DNA of 64,000 bases from Alphaproteobacteria bacterium (GTDB lineage Bacteria; Pseudomonadota; Alphaproteobacteria; Micropepsales; Micropepsaceae): contig CANJBZ010000005.1 in assembly GCA_947473475.1 (NCBI GenBank), positions 1-64,000 on the forward strand, written 5' to 3'. Shown here one piece after another: positions 36,704 through 44,293 of this stretch. Below the pieces are notes generated by a model. It was given only the letters and a program-made list of their open reading frames with translations, searched no databases and was not told where the DNA came from. The translations under genes and the position numbers were made by a program. Positions within the stretch are counted from its first letter, which is position 1. The number at the start of each line of letters is the position of its first letter.

Positions 36704-37513
36704 ATGCCTCGCGTCCAAATCCCATGTTTCACCGCCGTGTTGCTCGTCTTCACACCCGCTCTTGCAGCCCCGGCCCATCCCGATATTTCCGGCATTTGGA
36801 CGCGAGGAGGGGCGGCGGAAACGGCTTTTCTGCCGCCGCCATCCGGTCCTGGTCCGGTGATGAATCTGCTTCCGACGCCGCCGGGCGCCGGGGCGGGCGG
36901 GGGGCTTGTGATCAACCACTGGCAGGGCGATTACAACGCGCCCATCCTGCAGCCTTGGGCAGTGGAAAAAGTGCGCGCCCATACCGAGGCGGACCGCGCC
37001 GGCCTGCCGATGAATTCGGCGCAGGAAACCTGCTGGCCGATGGGTGTGCCCTATATCCTCGAACTGAACATGCACACGCAGTTCATGGAGGATGCGAGGC
37101 AGGTGACCATCCTGTACGAGCGTCACATGCAGGCGCGGGTGATCCCGCTCAATGCCGCGCACCGCACGAATATCAAGCCGAGCTGGTTCGGCGATTCCGT
37201 CGCGCGCTGGGAAGGCGATACGCTGGTCATCGACACCGTTGGAATCGACACCCGGACATGGGTCGACGTGTTCGCGACGCCCCACACGGATAAGCTCCAC
37301 GTCGTGGAACGCTATCGTCTGCTGGATGCGAACAGGATGCAGGGGGAGGTCCGCGTCGAGGACCCCGGCGCTTTCACCACGCCTTGGACCGGCATCGTCA
37401 ATTACCGCCGCGACCGCGAGCCCTATCTGGAAGTCGCCTGCAGCGAAAACAACATCAATCCCGTGACCCACGAATCCATGGGCACCCCAATCGCGCAGAA
37501 GCCGGACTTCTGA
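36704..37513 (+). CDS. Secreted protein of an uncharacterised family, paralogue 1
   Basis: 269 residues with a signal peptide (MPRVQIPCFTAVLLVFTPALA). It shares with the proteins at 37672 and 43460 these conserved blocks: Cys near VP (ETCWPMGVP), KPSWFGDS, WEGDTLVIDTVG, TPHTDKLHVVER, VEDP and a second Cys in ACSENN. This family is common in soil alphaproteobacteria and acidobacteria and has no known function; the two conserved cysteines suggest a disulfide-stabilised periplasmic fold. I place no enzyme label on it. Confidence 0.7.
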   Translation: MPRVQIPCFTAVLLVFTPALAAPAHPDISGIWTRGGAAETAFLPPPSGPGPVMNLLPTPPGAGAGGGLVINHWQGDYNAPILQPWAVEKVRAHTEADRAGLPMNSAQETCWPMGVPYILELNMHTQFMEDARQVTILYERHMQARVIPLNAAHRTNIKPSWFGDSVARWEGDTLVIDTVGIDTRTWVDVFATPHTDKLHVVERYRLLDANRMQGEVRVEDPGAFTTPWTGIVNYRRDREPYLEVACSENNINPVTHESMGTPIAQKPDF

Positions 37514-37671: not shown

Positions 37672-38460
37672 TTAAAACGCCGGATGCAAATCCATCGGCA
37701 TCCCCTTCACCGGCTCACCGCTGAAAGGATCGGTGTTGTTTTCCGAGCACGGGTCTTCGCCGAAACCCTCTTTGAACGGATGAAAGGTCAGTGAGGCGTC
37801 GAAGGGCTTGGTGAACACGCCGGGGTCTTCGATGTGATAGTCGATCCGAATCTCGCGCGGGCTCACGCGCCTTATCCGTTCGACGACGTGGAGCTTTTCC
37901 GTGTGCGGAGTCCCGAAGCGGTCGAACGGCACGACGTCGCGGGTTTTGATGCCGACCGTGTCGATCACCAGCGTGTCGCCCTCGTAGTGGCCGACTGATT
38001 CTCCGTACCAGGATGGTTTCACATCCTTGGAATGCGGCACATTCAGGTACACATGCCTAACCTGCCCCTGGTTGGCGATGACCATCGTCACCTTGTCGTT
38101 CTGCTGCAGGAACGCGTAGCCCTGGTGCAGCGTCATGACGCCAGGAACGGACGTCGGCAAACACAGGGCGTGGGCGTGCGGCGGCGCGCGTCCCGCATGG
38201 CTTTCCTCGGCCCAGAATTTCACCTGAGCGGCCGCGTCGGGCCGCAAAATCGGATTTTTATAATCGCCCTCCGGCCACTGAATATTACCGGACGCATTCG
38301 TCACCGGACCCGGCCCGCCATTTTCCGGCGGCGCCAGATCGAAACCCGGCCCTTCCCACCAGCCCGAGAGATCCGGAACGGGTGCTATCTCCTGTGCCGA
38401 TGCCGCCGGGATGGCTAACATCATCGCCGCAAGAAACATTCGACTGCGCATAGCGTTCAT
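37672..38460 (-). CDS. Secreted protein of an uncharacterised family, paralogue 2
   Basis: 262 residues from ATG 38460, signal peptide MNAMRSRMFLAAMMLAIPAASA. The shared blocks are CLPTSVPG, KPSWYGESVGHYEGDTLVIDTVG, FGTPHTEKLHVVER, IEDPG and CSENN. It lies 71 bp downstream of the MBL hydrolase gene, but a strong terminator sits in that spacer, so it may have its own promoter. Converges with paralogue 1 across a family-C repeat. Function unknown. Confidence 0.7.
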   Translation of the reverse strand: MNAMRSRMFLAAMMLAIPAASAQEIAPVPDLSGWWEGPGFDLAPPENGGPGPVTNASGNIQWPEGDYKNPILRPDAAAQVKFWAEESHAGRAPPHAHALCLPTSVPGVMTLHQGYAFLQQNDKVTMVIANQGQVRHVYLNVPHSKDVKPSWYGESVGHYEGDTLVIDTVGIKTRDVVPFDRFGTPHTEKLHVVERIRRVSPREIRIDYHIEDPGVFTKPFDASLTFHPFKEGFGEDPCSENNTDPFSGEPVKGMPMDLHPAF

Positions 38461-38479
38461 GGCTCGGCACTCAAGAAAA

Positions 38480-39762: not shown

Positions 39763-40659
39763 ATGATCGTAGTCGCCATCGCATCCCAGAAGGGCGGTTC
39801 GGGTAAGACGACCTTGTCTGGGCACCTTGCCGTCGAGGCTGATAAAGCCGGGGCGGGACCCGTAACGCTGATCGATACCGACCCGCAGGGCTCACTCTCC
39901 CAATGGTGGAACGCCCGTGCGGCGCGAAGCCCCCAATTCGCCAAAGTCGGCGCCTTCGAGCTGGAGGCCGCGCTGAATCATCTGGCGCGTACGGGAACCC
40001 GTATCGCCATCATCGATACTCCGCCGGCCATTTCCGATTCCATTTCGCACGTTATAGCCCATGCCGATCTGGTGATCGTGCCGACGCGCCCCTCGCCGCA
40101 CGATCTGCGCGCGGTTGGCGCCACGGTCGACATGGCGGAACGCTTCGACAAGCCGCTCATCTTTGTTGTGAATGGCGCAACGGCGCGGGCCCGCATCACC
40201 GGCGAAGCGGCGGTCGCGCTGTCCCAGCATGGCGTGGTGGCGCCGGTCACGCTGCATCATCGCGTCGACTTTGCCGCCAGCATGGTGGACGGCCGCACAG
40301 TGGGGGAAGTCGTCCCGAAATCGGCGTCCGCGAAGGAAATGACGGAGCTCTGGGTTTACATCCAAGAGCGGCTGGCGCGCCTGACCAAAGACAACAGCCT
40401 GTTGCCTGGAAATCGCGCGACGCATTTGTCGTTGTCACCGTTGTTGGGCCTGGATGCCCACGATGCGCCGGAAAGCGAAGAGATTCCGATGCAGGAGATC
40501 AACCCGGCACAGCCGGTTGTGCAGACGGCGGACTATACTGGCCCCGACCGCCGCGCTGTGCCGCGCAATCCCTCCCTCTTCGGCGTGCCCGAACGGCGCC
40601 CCAATGTGTTCGGCCGCCGGAGCGCGGACCAGTATCCCGACGTGAGTGGCCGAAAATGA
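39763..40659 (+). CDS. Orphan ParA-like ATPase
   Basis: 298 residues from ATG 39763. MIVVAIASQKGGSGKTTLSGH is the deviant Walker A of ParA/Soj/MinD ATPases; TLIDTDPQGSLSQWW and IAIIDTPPAISDS follow as expected. There is no N-terminal helix-turn-helix. The core (~210 residues) is followed by an ~80-residue Pro/Arg-rich tail (GPDRRAVPRNPSLFGVPERR). It overlaps the next gene by 4 bp (ATGA), which strongly suggests a partnered pair. Orphan ParAs of this type position chemoreceptor clusters or other cargo; no parS-like cluster, rep gene or parB is nearby, so plasmid partition is unlikely. Confidence 0.85.
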   Translation: MIVVAIASQKGGSGKTTLSGHLAVEADKAGAGPVTLIDTDPQGSLSQWWNARAARSPQFAKVGAFELEAALNHLARTGTRIAIIDTPPAISDSISHVIAHADLVIVPTRPSPHDLRAVGATVDMAERFDKPLIFVVNGATARARITGEAAVALSQHGVVAPVTLHHRVDFAASMVDGRTVGEVVPKSASAKEMTELWVYIQERLARLTKDNSLLPGNRATHLSLSPLLGLDAHDAPESEEIPMQEINPAQPVVQTADYTGPDRRAVPRNPSLFGVPERRPNVFGRRSADQYPDVSGRK

Positions 40660-41141
40660 ATGGTGGTAAGTTCGCGAGCCTCACGGCAGGGCTCCTCGTG
40701 CGTAAAGGCGAGGCGCATCCGTCCATGATCGGCCCGGCGTCTGTTTTCAATCCATCTCTGCTTCATATGCAACAGAGTCGTACGCAACGGTTTGAGTTCG
40801 TTTCCGGTGCGGAAAGCTCATCGCCGCCGGATCTGGACGCATTGGATCGCACTCCGGATTATGACGGATCTGAGCCGCCCGCAGAGCGCATCGAGCCCGC
40901 GCCGGGCCGCCGCAAGTCGGCAAGTGGGAAGCCGCCTCCTCCGCGGCCGCCCGCCAAACCCCGGCGTCTGATGGTTACACTAAGCTCGCAGGAGTTCGAA
41001 ACGCTGGGGCACATGAGCGTGAAAAAGGGCGCGACGCGGCACCAATTATTGCGTAATGCGCTCGACGAATATATGTCCCTGCTGGGCGAGGAGTTTGGCG
41101 GCTACTGCCAGTGCATCTACACCGGCTGCTCCTGCGATTAG
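40656..41141 (+). CDS. RHH-type partner of the ParA-like protein with Cys-rich tail
   Basis: 161 residues. ATG 40656 overlaps the TGA of the ParA-like gene, so translation is coupled. Residues ~1-100 are Pro/Ser-rich and probably disordered. Residues ~103-140 (RRLMVTLSSQEFETLGHMSVKKGATRHQLLRNALDEYM) look like a ribbon-helix-helix DNA-binding domain. The end is CQCIYTGCSCD, two CxC pairs separated by four residues, a possible metal or cofactor site. Ribbon-helix-helix proteins serve as ParB substitutes in several ParA systems. What it binds is unknown. Confidence 0.65.
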   Translation: MNGGKFASLTAGLLVRKGEAHPSMIGPASVFNPSLLHMQQSRTQRFEFVSGAESSSPPDLDALDRTPDYDGSEPPAERIEPAPGRRKSASGKPPPPRPPAKPRRLMVTLSSQEFETLGHMSVKKGATRHQLLRNALDEYMSLLGEEFGGYCQCIYTGCSCD

Positions 41142-41147
41142 CTCAAA

Positions 41148-41177
41148 CATCACCTCCCCCAACGCGGGGAGGTGATG
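41148..41177. repeat. Short CACCTCCCC palindrome
   Basis: CATCACCTCCCC and GGGGAGGTGATG form a perfect 12-bp stem with a 6-nt loop, 6 bp after the RHH gene stop. The same core recurs at 59426-59452 and, diverged, within 63250-63272. No T-run follows, so it is a repeat element first and at best a weak terminator. Confidence 0.75.
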
Positions 41178-43459: not shown

Positions 43460-44293
43460 ATGCGGTTCGGTGCGGTTAGCGTTTCGCTTTTGGCAATGTG
43501 GCTCGCCGGTCCCGCGGCGGCGCAGGACAAAATCCCCAACCTTGCGTCCCATGATTTCGCGTGGCTCGCGCTTGGGGTCGATTGGCTCGATCCGCCGCCG
43601 GGTTTGGGACATGGGCCCATCCGTAACGATCCGGCCTATCCGCTGCACGGCAATCGCGACGGGCCGGGGCAGATCACCCCGCGCATCGCCAATATCAAAG
43701 ACCCGGCGCTGAAGCCGTGGGCCGCCAAGCAGATGCAGGAAGCGAACGAGGAAATTCTCTCGGGCAAGCGCGGCCTGCCGTTCTCCGCGCAATCGACCTG
43801 CTATCCCGGCGGCGTCCCCGAGCAATTGCTGACGCCGGCCGAACCCGTCTATTTCATCCAGACCCCCAAGGAAGTGTGGATGGTCTGGGAAAGCGACCAT
43901 CAGGTTCGCCGCGTCTATATGACGGACAAGCATTCCGCGAATGTGAAACCATCCTGGTACGGAGAATCCATCGGCCATTACGAAGACGGCGACACGCTTG
44001 TCGTGGATACCGTCGGTCTTCAGGCGCGCAACTCCTATCTTGATTGGTTCCGCACGCCGCACTCGGAAAAGATGCATGTCGTCGAACGCTTCAAGCTGTC
44101 GCCTGACGAAAAGGTGCTGACCGCGGTGGTGAAGGTGGAAGACCCGGACACGTTCAACGAACCGCTCTATATGTCGCGGCGCTGGAACAAGTCTCCCAAT
44201 CCCCTGCTGGAAATGGTGTGCGCCGAGAACAATCAGGATCGCTTCGGAAAGAATCTCTTTCCCATGCCGCAAGCGAACAGTCCCGACTTCTGA
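43460..44293 (+). CDS. Secreted protein of an uncharacterised family, paralogue 3
   Basis: 277 residues from ATG 43460, with AAGGGG upstream. Signal peptide MRFGAVSVSLLAMWLAGPAAA. Same blocks as paralogues 1 and 2: STCYPGGVP, KPSWYGESIGHYEDGDTLVVDTVG, FRTPHSEKMHVVER, VEDPD and CAENN. One residue is inserted before GDTLV compared with the others. The TGA stop is the first part of a long-range RNA stem (44291-44302), see the regulatory entry. Function unknown. Confidence 0.7.
   Translation: MRFGAVSVSLLAMWLAGPAAAQDKIPNLASHDFAWLALGVDWLDPPPGLGHGPIRNDPAYPLHGNRDGPGQITPRIANIKDPALKPWAAKQMQEANEEILSGKRGLPFSAQSTCYPGGVPEQLLTPAEPVYFIQTPKEVWMVWESDHQVRRVYMTDKHSANVKPSWYGESIGHYEDGDTLVVDTVGLQARNSYLDWFRTPHSEKMHVVERFKLSPDEKVLTAVVKVEDPDTFNEPLYMSRRWNKSPNPLLEMVCAENNQDRFGKNLFPMPQANSPDF

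Follow-up and report, generated by a model that had tools for sequence, protein, structure and literature searches.

For many ParA ATPases of bacteria no partner is known, and these are referred to as orphans (PMC10241942). In the many kinds of partner that have been described, a short, basic, flexible N-terminal peptide triggers the ATPase, leaving the remainder of the protein to hold the cargo (PMC7993993; PMC10241942). PpfA/TlpT, McdA/McdB and PomZ/PomX have partners other than ParB (a chemoreceptor, McdB or a coiled coil), and these too are thought to use a short basic N-terminal peptide (PMC7993993). In ParF/ParG, the type Ib system of plasmid TP228, tandem genes encode a small ParA and a ribbon-helix-helix (RHH) partner, ParG, with an arginine-finger-like motif on a flexible, basic arm ahead of its RHH domain (PMC7308502).

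The locus described here lies in a window of 64,000 nucleotides, the whole stretch of alphaproteobacterial DNA that was analysed. ParF/ParG was the top sequence match for both of its proteins and the top fold match for its ParA. The pair shares with ParF/ParG the small ParA, the RHH partner, with a predicted flexible basic arm, and the tandem genes; unlike ParF/ParG, it is chromosomal, its ParA has a C-terminal tail of 90 residues with an FGRR motif, and in its partner the linker is long and the C-terminus bears a cysteine tail. With ParABS (Soj/Spo0J) it shares the general mechanism, a deviant Walker ATPase and an activating-type N-terminal peptide on the partner, but the partner has no ParB/CTPase domain, no parS was found, and the genome has a ParB of its own elsewhere (G000:C9:18274). 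PpfA/TlpT, McdA/McdB and PomZ/PomX resemble it in using non-ParB partners, although this family has RHH or SPOR domains in their place. The original prediction, that this system is unlike classical ParAB, stands in so far as the ParB domain is missing and a canonical ParB is encoded elsewhere; the ParF/ParG precedent and close plasmid relatives take the edge off the claim. Novelty of the architecture is not supported, as a small ParA with an RHH protein bearing an ATPase-activating N-terminal tail is already the ParF/ParG plan (PMC7308502). What is new is the conserved activating-type motif of the partner, the wide occurrence of the pair on chromosomes, the CxC tail and its conservation, and the replacement of RHH by SPOR in some relatives. 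Our literature search, partial in its coverage and hence a weak negative, found no description of a ParA-RHH-CxC or ParA-SPOR pairing.

We put the probability at about 0.7 that the pair is a chromosomally settled relative of the small plasmid-partition modules built on the ParF/ParG plan, whose partner would activate ParA and move with its cargo.

The ATPase and its plasmid relatives

The ParA-family gene (39763..40659, plus strand) encodes 298 residues, which Pfam and NCBIfam both place in the ParA superfamily. Residues 1-208 form a ParF-like core with the deviant Walker A motif KGGSGKTT (39790..39813, plus strand, residues 10-17; QKGGSGKTT in the sequence), invariant in ParA alignments A2 and A4. 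The closest solved sequences by phmmer were 4dzz (E 1.7e-13) and 5u1g (E 1.8e-13), so that its nearest solved relatives by sequence are TP228 ParF and the ParA-ParB complex of the same plasmid. Foldseek likewise ranked ParF first for the ParA model (4e07/4e03, E 3.9e-13 to 5e-13, TM-score 0.84-0.88 on the target). ParF-like kinship, ParF fold and deviant Walker A are thus all present. The best NCBIfam model, NF041546 (ParA_partition), gave 162.7 bits against a cut-off of 180, about 17 bits short, and nothing in the organism's own genome exceeded 180 bits against this model; the missed cut-off counts against our reading.

The protein is larger than a ParF-type single domain of about 206 residues, which the core of about 208 residues would fit alone. 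The remainder is a disordered C-terminal tail (residues 209-298; 40387..40656, plus strand), in which nearly all residues from 223 to 298 have a pLDDT below 50 in the AlphaFold model. Near its end lies FGRR (residues 283-286; 40609-40620, plus strand); the G-R-R is invariant in alignment A2 and FGRR is nearly invariant in alignment A4. The original prediction was silent on this tail. Repeated GPERR/DRR together with a terminal FGRR were seen in chromosomal ParA tails (for example this one and those of L104 and L105), and FGRR-like stretches occur in some partner linkers as well (L070, L077, L078).

A paralogue in the same genome (G000:C1:36180-37085, equivalent to L084:9181-10089) matches residues 1-223 at 80% identity but diverges in the tail, and the ORF downstream of it is not a partner gene. 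A single partner may serve both ParAs of this genome; the partnerless paralogue also counts against our reading.

ParAs 58-62% identical to the core of the window protein are found on plasmids of Comamonas (pZM22-2), Deefgea, Xanthomonas and others, among them pXCV19 and PLAsvaD. All those inspected are followed, in the same gene order, by an RHH-type partner of about 78-114 residues that carries the N-terminal motif described below or a variant of it, and several pairs (Comamonas, Deefgea, E. coli, Defluviicoccus, PLAsvaD) lie beside a rep gene. Given these RHH partners with the motif, in several cases by rep, the window pair is akin to plasmid partition modules. The plasmid pairs differ from it in that their ParAs end at about 206-216 residues without the FGRR tail and their partners have no CxC (0 of 12). 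A tblastn search of plasmids with the window partner gave no match, and plasmid partners were reached only via their ParA. The plasmid sequences fall within the chromosomal diversity in two groups, on unrooted quick trees with long branches that do not settle the direction of transfer.

This kinship would also suit what is left of a plasmid that once integrated, degenerate or selfish and keeping a partition function by inertia, for example in incompatibility with related plasmids. The partnerless paralogue agrees with such a remnant, as does the failure to keep neighbouring genes between genera. We nevertheless consider it improbable: the pair occurs in many alphaproteobacterial families with Walker A and N-terminal motif intact and CxC mostly so, a search of the flanking ORFs found no gene for an integrase, Rep or relaxase, and the lineage-specific CxC and long ParA tail argue for selection on a host function.

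Of 241 alphaproteobacterial genomes sampled, 35, from many families, had a ParA of the window type (E 1e-60 or better). Named hosts of the family are, among others, Rhizomicrobium, Parvibaculum, Maricaulis, Devosia, Sneathiella, Kordiimonas and many Sphingomonadales. The relatives studied were those nearest to the window together with an even sample of the class, and many of their genomes are drafts. First-pass neighbour calling missed the ParA in 26 loci, so that synteny counts are lower bounds. For this family a likely partner can now be named, and its short motif predicts more. In loci from the window's own taxonomic family (L061, L063, L074, L076-L080) a DUF2336 gene lies immediately 5' of parA, and some of these have a ROS/MucR regulator gene nearby, downstream.

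The RHH partner and its N-terminal motif

The partner gene (40656..41141, plus strand), single-copy in its genome, encodes 161 residues made up of an N-terminal motif, a linker, an RHH domain and a cysteine tail. Its start and the parA stop share the ATGA at 40656-40659, and the two ORFs are as the original prediction had described them. Nearly all relatives examined have the partner as the next gene downstream of ParA, mostly at -4 to +40 bp. This adjacency, together with the invariance of the first CxC in the 19-member partner alignment, shows that the pairing is not due to chance. Loss of the cysteines or separation of the genes in relatives had been named beforehand as evidence against the proposal; neither occurred, as the cysteines are conserved and the genes stay together.

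The best conserved stretch of the partner is residues 6-22 (FASLTAGLLVRKGEAHP; 40671..40721, plus strand). Across 19 aligned orthologues (alignment A1) L-x-R-K-G-x-A-x-P is invariant, and K17 and G18 are invariant over 42 diverse partner sequences. The linker that follows varies in both length and sequence among relatives. In the AlphaFold model the N-terminal arm has low confidence and no secondary structure. More than the disorder originally described is present there, as the near-invariant motif LLxRKGxAxP lies within residues 6-22. By analogy with other ParA partners we infer that this stretch is a candidate ParA-activating peptide, with R16 and K17 as the probable ATPase activator. Its position, its basic charge and its persistence after replacement of the rest of the partner (see below) fit that role.

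The RHH domain occupies residues ~100-149 (40953..41102, plus strand). AlphaFold places helices at 111-124 and 128-146, in a block with a pLDDT of about 84-97. The top structural matches of the model were RHH proteins (Foldseek CopASO/CopG; VIA Z up to 5.7), and the partner family profile found ParG (PDB 1p94, E 5.5e-4) as its best solved match. Taken alone, the window partner scored E 0.23 against PF01402 in Pfam, below every RHH or ParG threshold, which counts against our reading; the Pfam ParG family PF09274 matched 2 of 19 family members weakly (best E 0.01) and did not match the window protein at E 1. The domain is real in spite of this weak single-sequence score, as originally proposed, and has the C-terminal position and fold of ParG.

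A single-sequence scan of genome contigs with the window partner retrieved zero relatives, and alignment A1, a mixture of partners, varied too much to serve in such scans. Relatives were found instead by whole-genome search and a ParA profile. One genome (G002) has, on short contig C567, a partner-like ORF with the N-terminal motif and without CxC or a ParA (L086:3198-3593). An intact pair is present on its contig C282, and as the genome is a draft the C567 ORF could be a fragment.

Antitoxins are often RHH proteins, and most of the structural matches were antitoxins or CopG-type repressors. The gene might on those grounds encode an antitoxin, or a plain RHH regulator that happens to stand by an unrelated ParA. 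The same ParA is linked to it throughout, however, no toxin gene was found, and the N-terminal motif is conserved along with ParA and persists where SPOR replaces RHH. These points leave this the least probable of the readings considered, with scarcely any weight.

If the pair works as a relative of the ParF/ParG modules, ParA would dimerise on ATP and coat the nucleoid. The RHH partner would be a dimer whose C-terminal halves hold the cargo, for which a specific DNA site is the simplest candidate, and from which two long flexible arms extend, tipped by LLxRKGxAxP. The R-K pair of this motif would stimulate the ParA ATPase and so release ParA from the DNA. Partner and cargo would then track gradients of ParA and so come to be regularly placed, or be shared between daughters.

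The surroundings of the pair were searched for signs of such a DNA site. In ParF/ParG the centromere/operator is built of tetramer boxes that recur close to the genes, but a repeat scan found neither these nor any other centromere- or parS-like repeats in the 361 bp upstream of parA, nor was a promoter consensus found there. No conserved upstream footprint was detected among relatives or within the window-like group. The missing repeats and footprint count against our reading, in which DNA is the putative cargo. The flanking ORFs include no rep, integrase or relaxase gene, so the placement beside a replication gene that is seen on plasmids is absent here. These results agree with the original statement that neither parS nor a replication gene is near. 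Just past the partner stop lies a perfect 12-bp hairpin (CATCACCTCCCC / GGGGAGGTGATG; 41148..41177, plus strand), possibly a transcription end that dispenses with a T run. A terminator scan found no T-run terminator after the partner gene and did not flag this hairpin. Three paralogous proteins surround the module, two before it (36704-37513, plus strand; 37672-38463, minus strand) and one after (43460-44293, plus strand). They have no Pfam match, are 34-41% identical to the first and carry apparent signal peptides.

Three chemoreceptor (MCP) genes are present in the window at about 15.6, 17.3 and 20.6 kb, 19-24 kb from the pair, and one lies immediately 5' of the pair in a relative (L051). 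Positioning of chemoreceptor arrays, as in PpfA/TlpT, might be suspected from this, and co-occurrence with chemoreceptors had been put forward as a check. It was not borne out: among about 90 relative loci, a chemoreceptor gene lies within about 7-9 kb on either side in only 4 (synteny counts being lower bounds), and the partner itself is no chemoreceptor. We regard this function as very improbable.

The cysteine tail

The partner ends in CQCIYTGCSC (YCQCIYTGCSCD). Its four cysteines, C151-x-C153-x4-C158-x-C160 (41106..41135, plus strand; CQC-IYTG-CSC at residues 151-160), form the CxC-x4-CxC tail that had been predicted. The first CxC, directly after the RHH helices, is the conserved pair. 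It is kept in orthologues, the check that had been proposed: among chromosomal RHH partners from outside the sphingomonads 50 of 53 have it, made up of 14/14 from window-like loci, 17/17 from the family's other genera and 19/22 from Alphaproteobacteria beyond the family. The position of the second pair moves. It follows the CxC in the window's lineage, and in sister genera it stands just before the RHH domain as CxxC or similar. Exactly four cysteines were counted in 25 of 31 partners from the window's lineage and the same family, and this pattern suits a four-ligand metal site. Some relatives (Sneathiella and Kordiimonas types) have two cysteines only, a point against our reading; an RHH dimer would there supply four per dimer.

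None of the 56 sphingomonad partners has the CxC. This counts against our reading and shows that the ParA-partner machine can do without the tail. Judged from the sequence, the most likely role of the tail is metal binding (zinc or an iron-sulfur centre) or the formation of redox-sensitive bonds. Placed right after the RHH helices, it would in this way stabilise or gate the partner dimer. Through the tail the environment might control where ParA positions its cargo, a kind of control that would be new if demonstrated. The original prediction had raised metal binding and a response to small molecules as possibilities.

SPOR-type pairs and the Sphingomonadales loci

In seven sampled loci (L065, L067, L195, L210, L212, L214, L220) the gene after ParA encodes the N-terminal motif (for example MSKKPAPLTSDLLVRKGDATPS), a hydrophobic, membrane-type segment and a C-terminal SPOR domain. 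Pfam recognised SPOR in two of the seven proteins (E 8e-15 and 5e-10), and the others were assigned by sequence similarity. Five genomes (G044, G168, G151, G243, G227) have both RHH-type and SPOR-type pairs. The ParAs linked to SPOR may have one common origin (AU p 0.78). Since the motif also heads SPOR proteins, it can move independently of RHH, which is what a ParA-contact peptide should do. The replacement of RHH by SPOR, with both types side by side in some genomes, is a natural experiment on change of ParA cargo.

SPOR domains are also encoded close to RHH-type pairs. In Sphingomonadales a TPR-SPOR gene follows the ParA-RHH genes as a cluster in at least 42 loci, and a Sel1-SPOR gene faces them in at least 35. 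SPOR domains bind septal peptidoglycan, so that part of the family probably acts at the division site. Upstream of parA, 45 of 54 Sphingomonadales loci (L107-L172) have TTAA-N7-TTRR, mostly about 64-90 bp before the start; about 1 was found in shuffles and 0-3 with altered spacing. Exact TTAA-N7-TTAA also stands upstream of parA in L061, L070 and L071. The CtrA consensus is TTAA-N7-TTAAC (PMC7200025), and the sequence resembles this cell-cycle box; alternatively, it could be an operator for the RHH protein. Genome-wide, the box variant TTAACC-N5-TTAG was no commoner than its reversed control, a count that favours neither a CtrA box nor an RHH operator.

These observations bear on a further explanation, in which the cargo of the ParA is an assembly of proteins linked to division or to the envelope, and the RHH domain serves for autoregulation or nucleoid docking. 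The activator step would be the same as in our preferred reading and only the cargo would differ. The motif on membrane-SPOR proteins, the genomes with both pair types, the TPR-SPOR and Sel1-SPOR neighbours and the CtrA-like box all agree with it. At the window locus and its near relatives, however, the SPOR neighbour is absent and the box was found in 0 of 15, and elsewhere the box could be the RHH protein's own operator. We give envelope positioning considerable weight, short of even odds, and continue to prefer a settled relative of the plasmid-partition modules.

A wider and more doubtful proposal, which we think unlikely as it stands, is that these loci represent a widespread family of positioning ParAs in Alphaproteobacteria that has no name as yet. 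Its LLxRKGxAxP would be set on interchangeable cargo ends: an RHH domain whose metal- or redox-responsive CxC switches cargo binding, or a septal, membrane-anchored SPOR domain. If this were true, one type of ParA would tie the position of the nucleoid to cell division and to the redox or metal state of the cell, with CtrA control in Sphingomonadales. The linkers of sphingomonad partners (e.g. L150:7753-8313) have a second conserved short motif, (D)DLGWNDMG, amid otherwise variable sequence.
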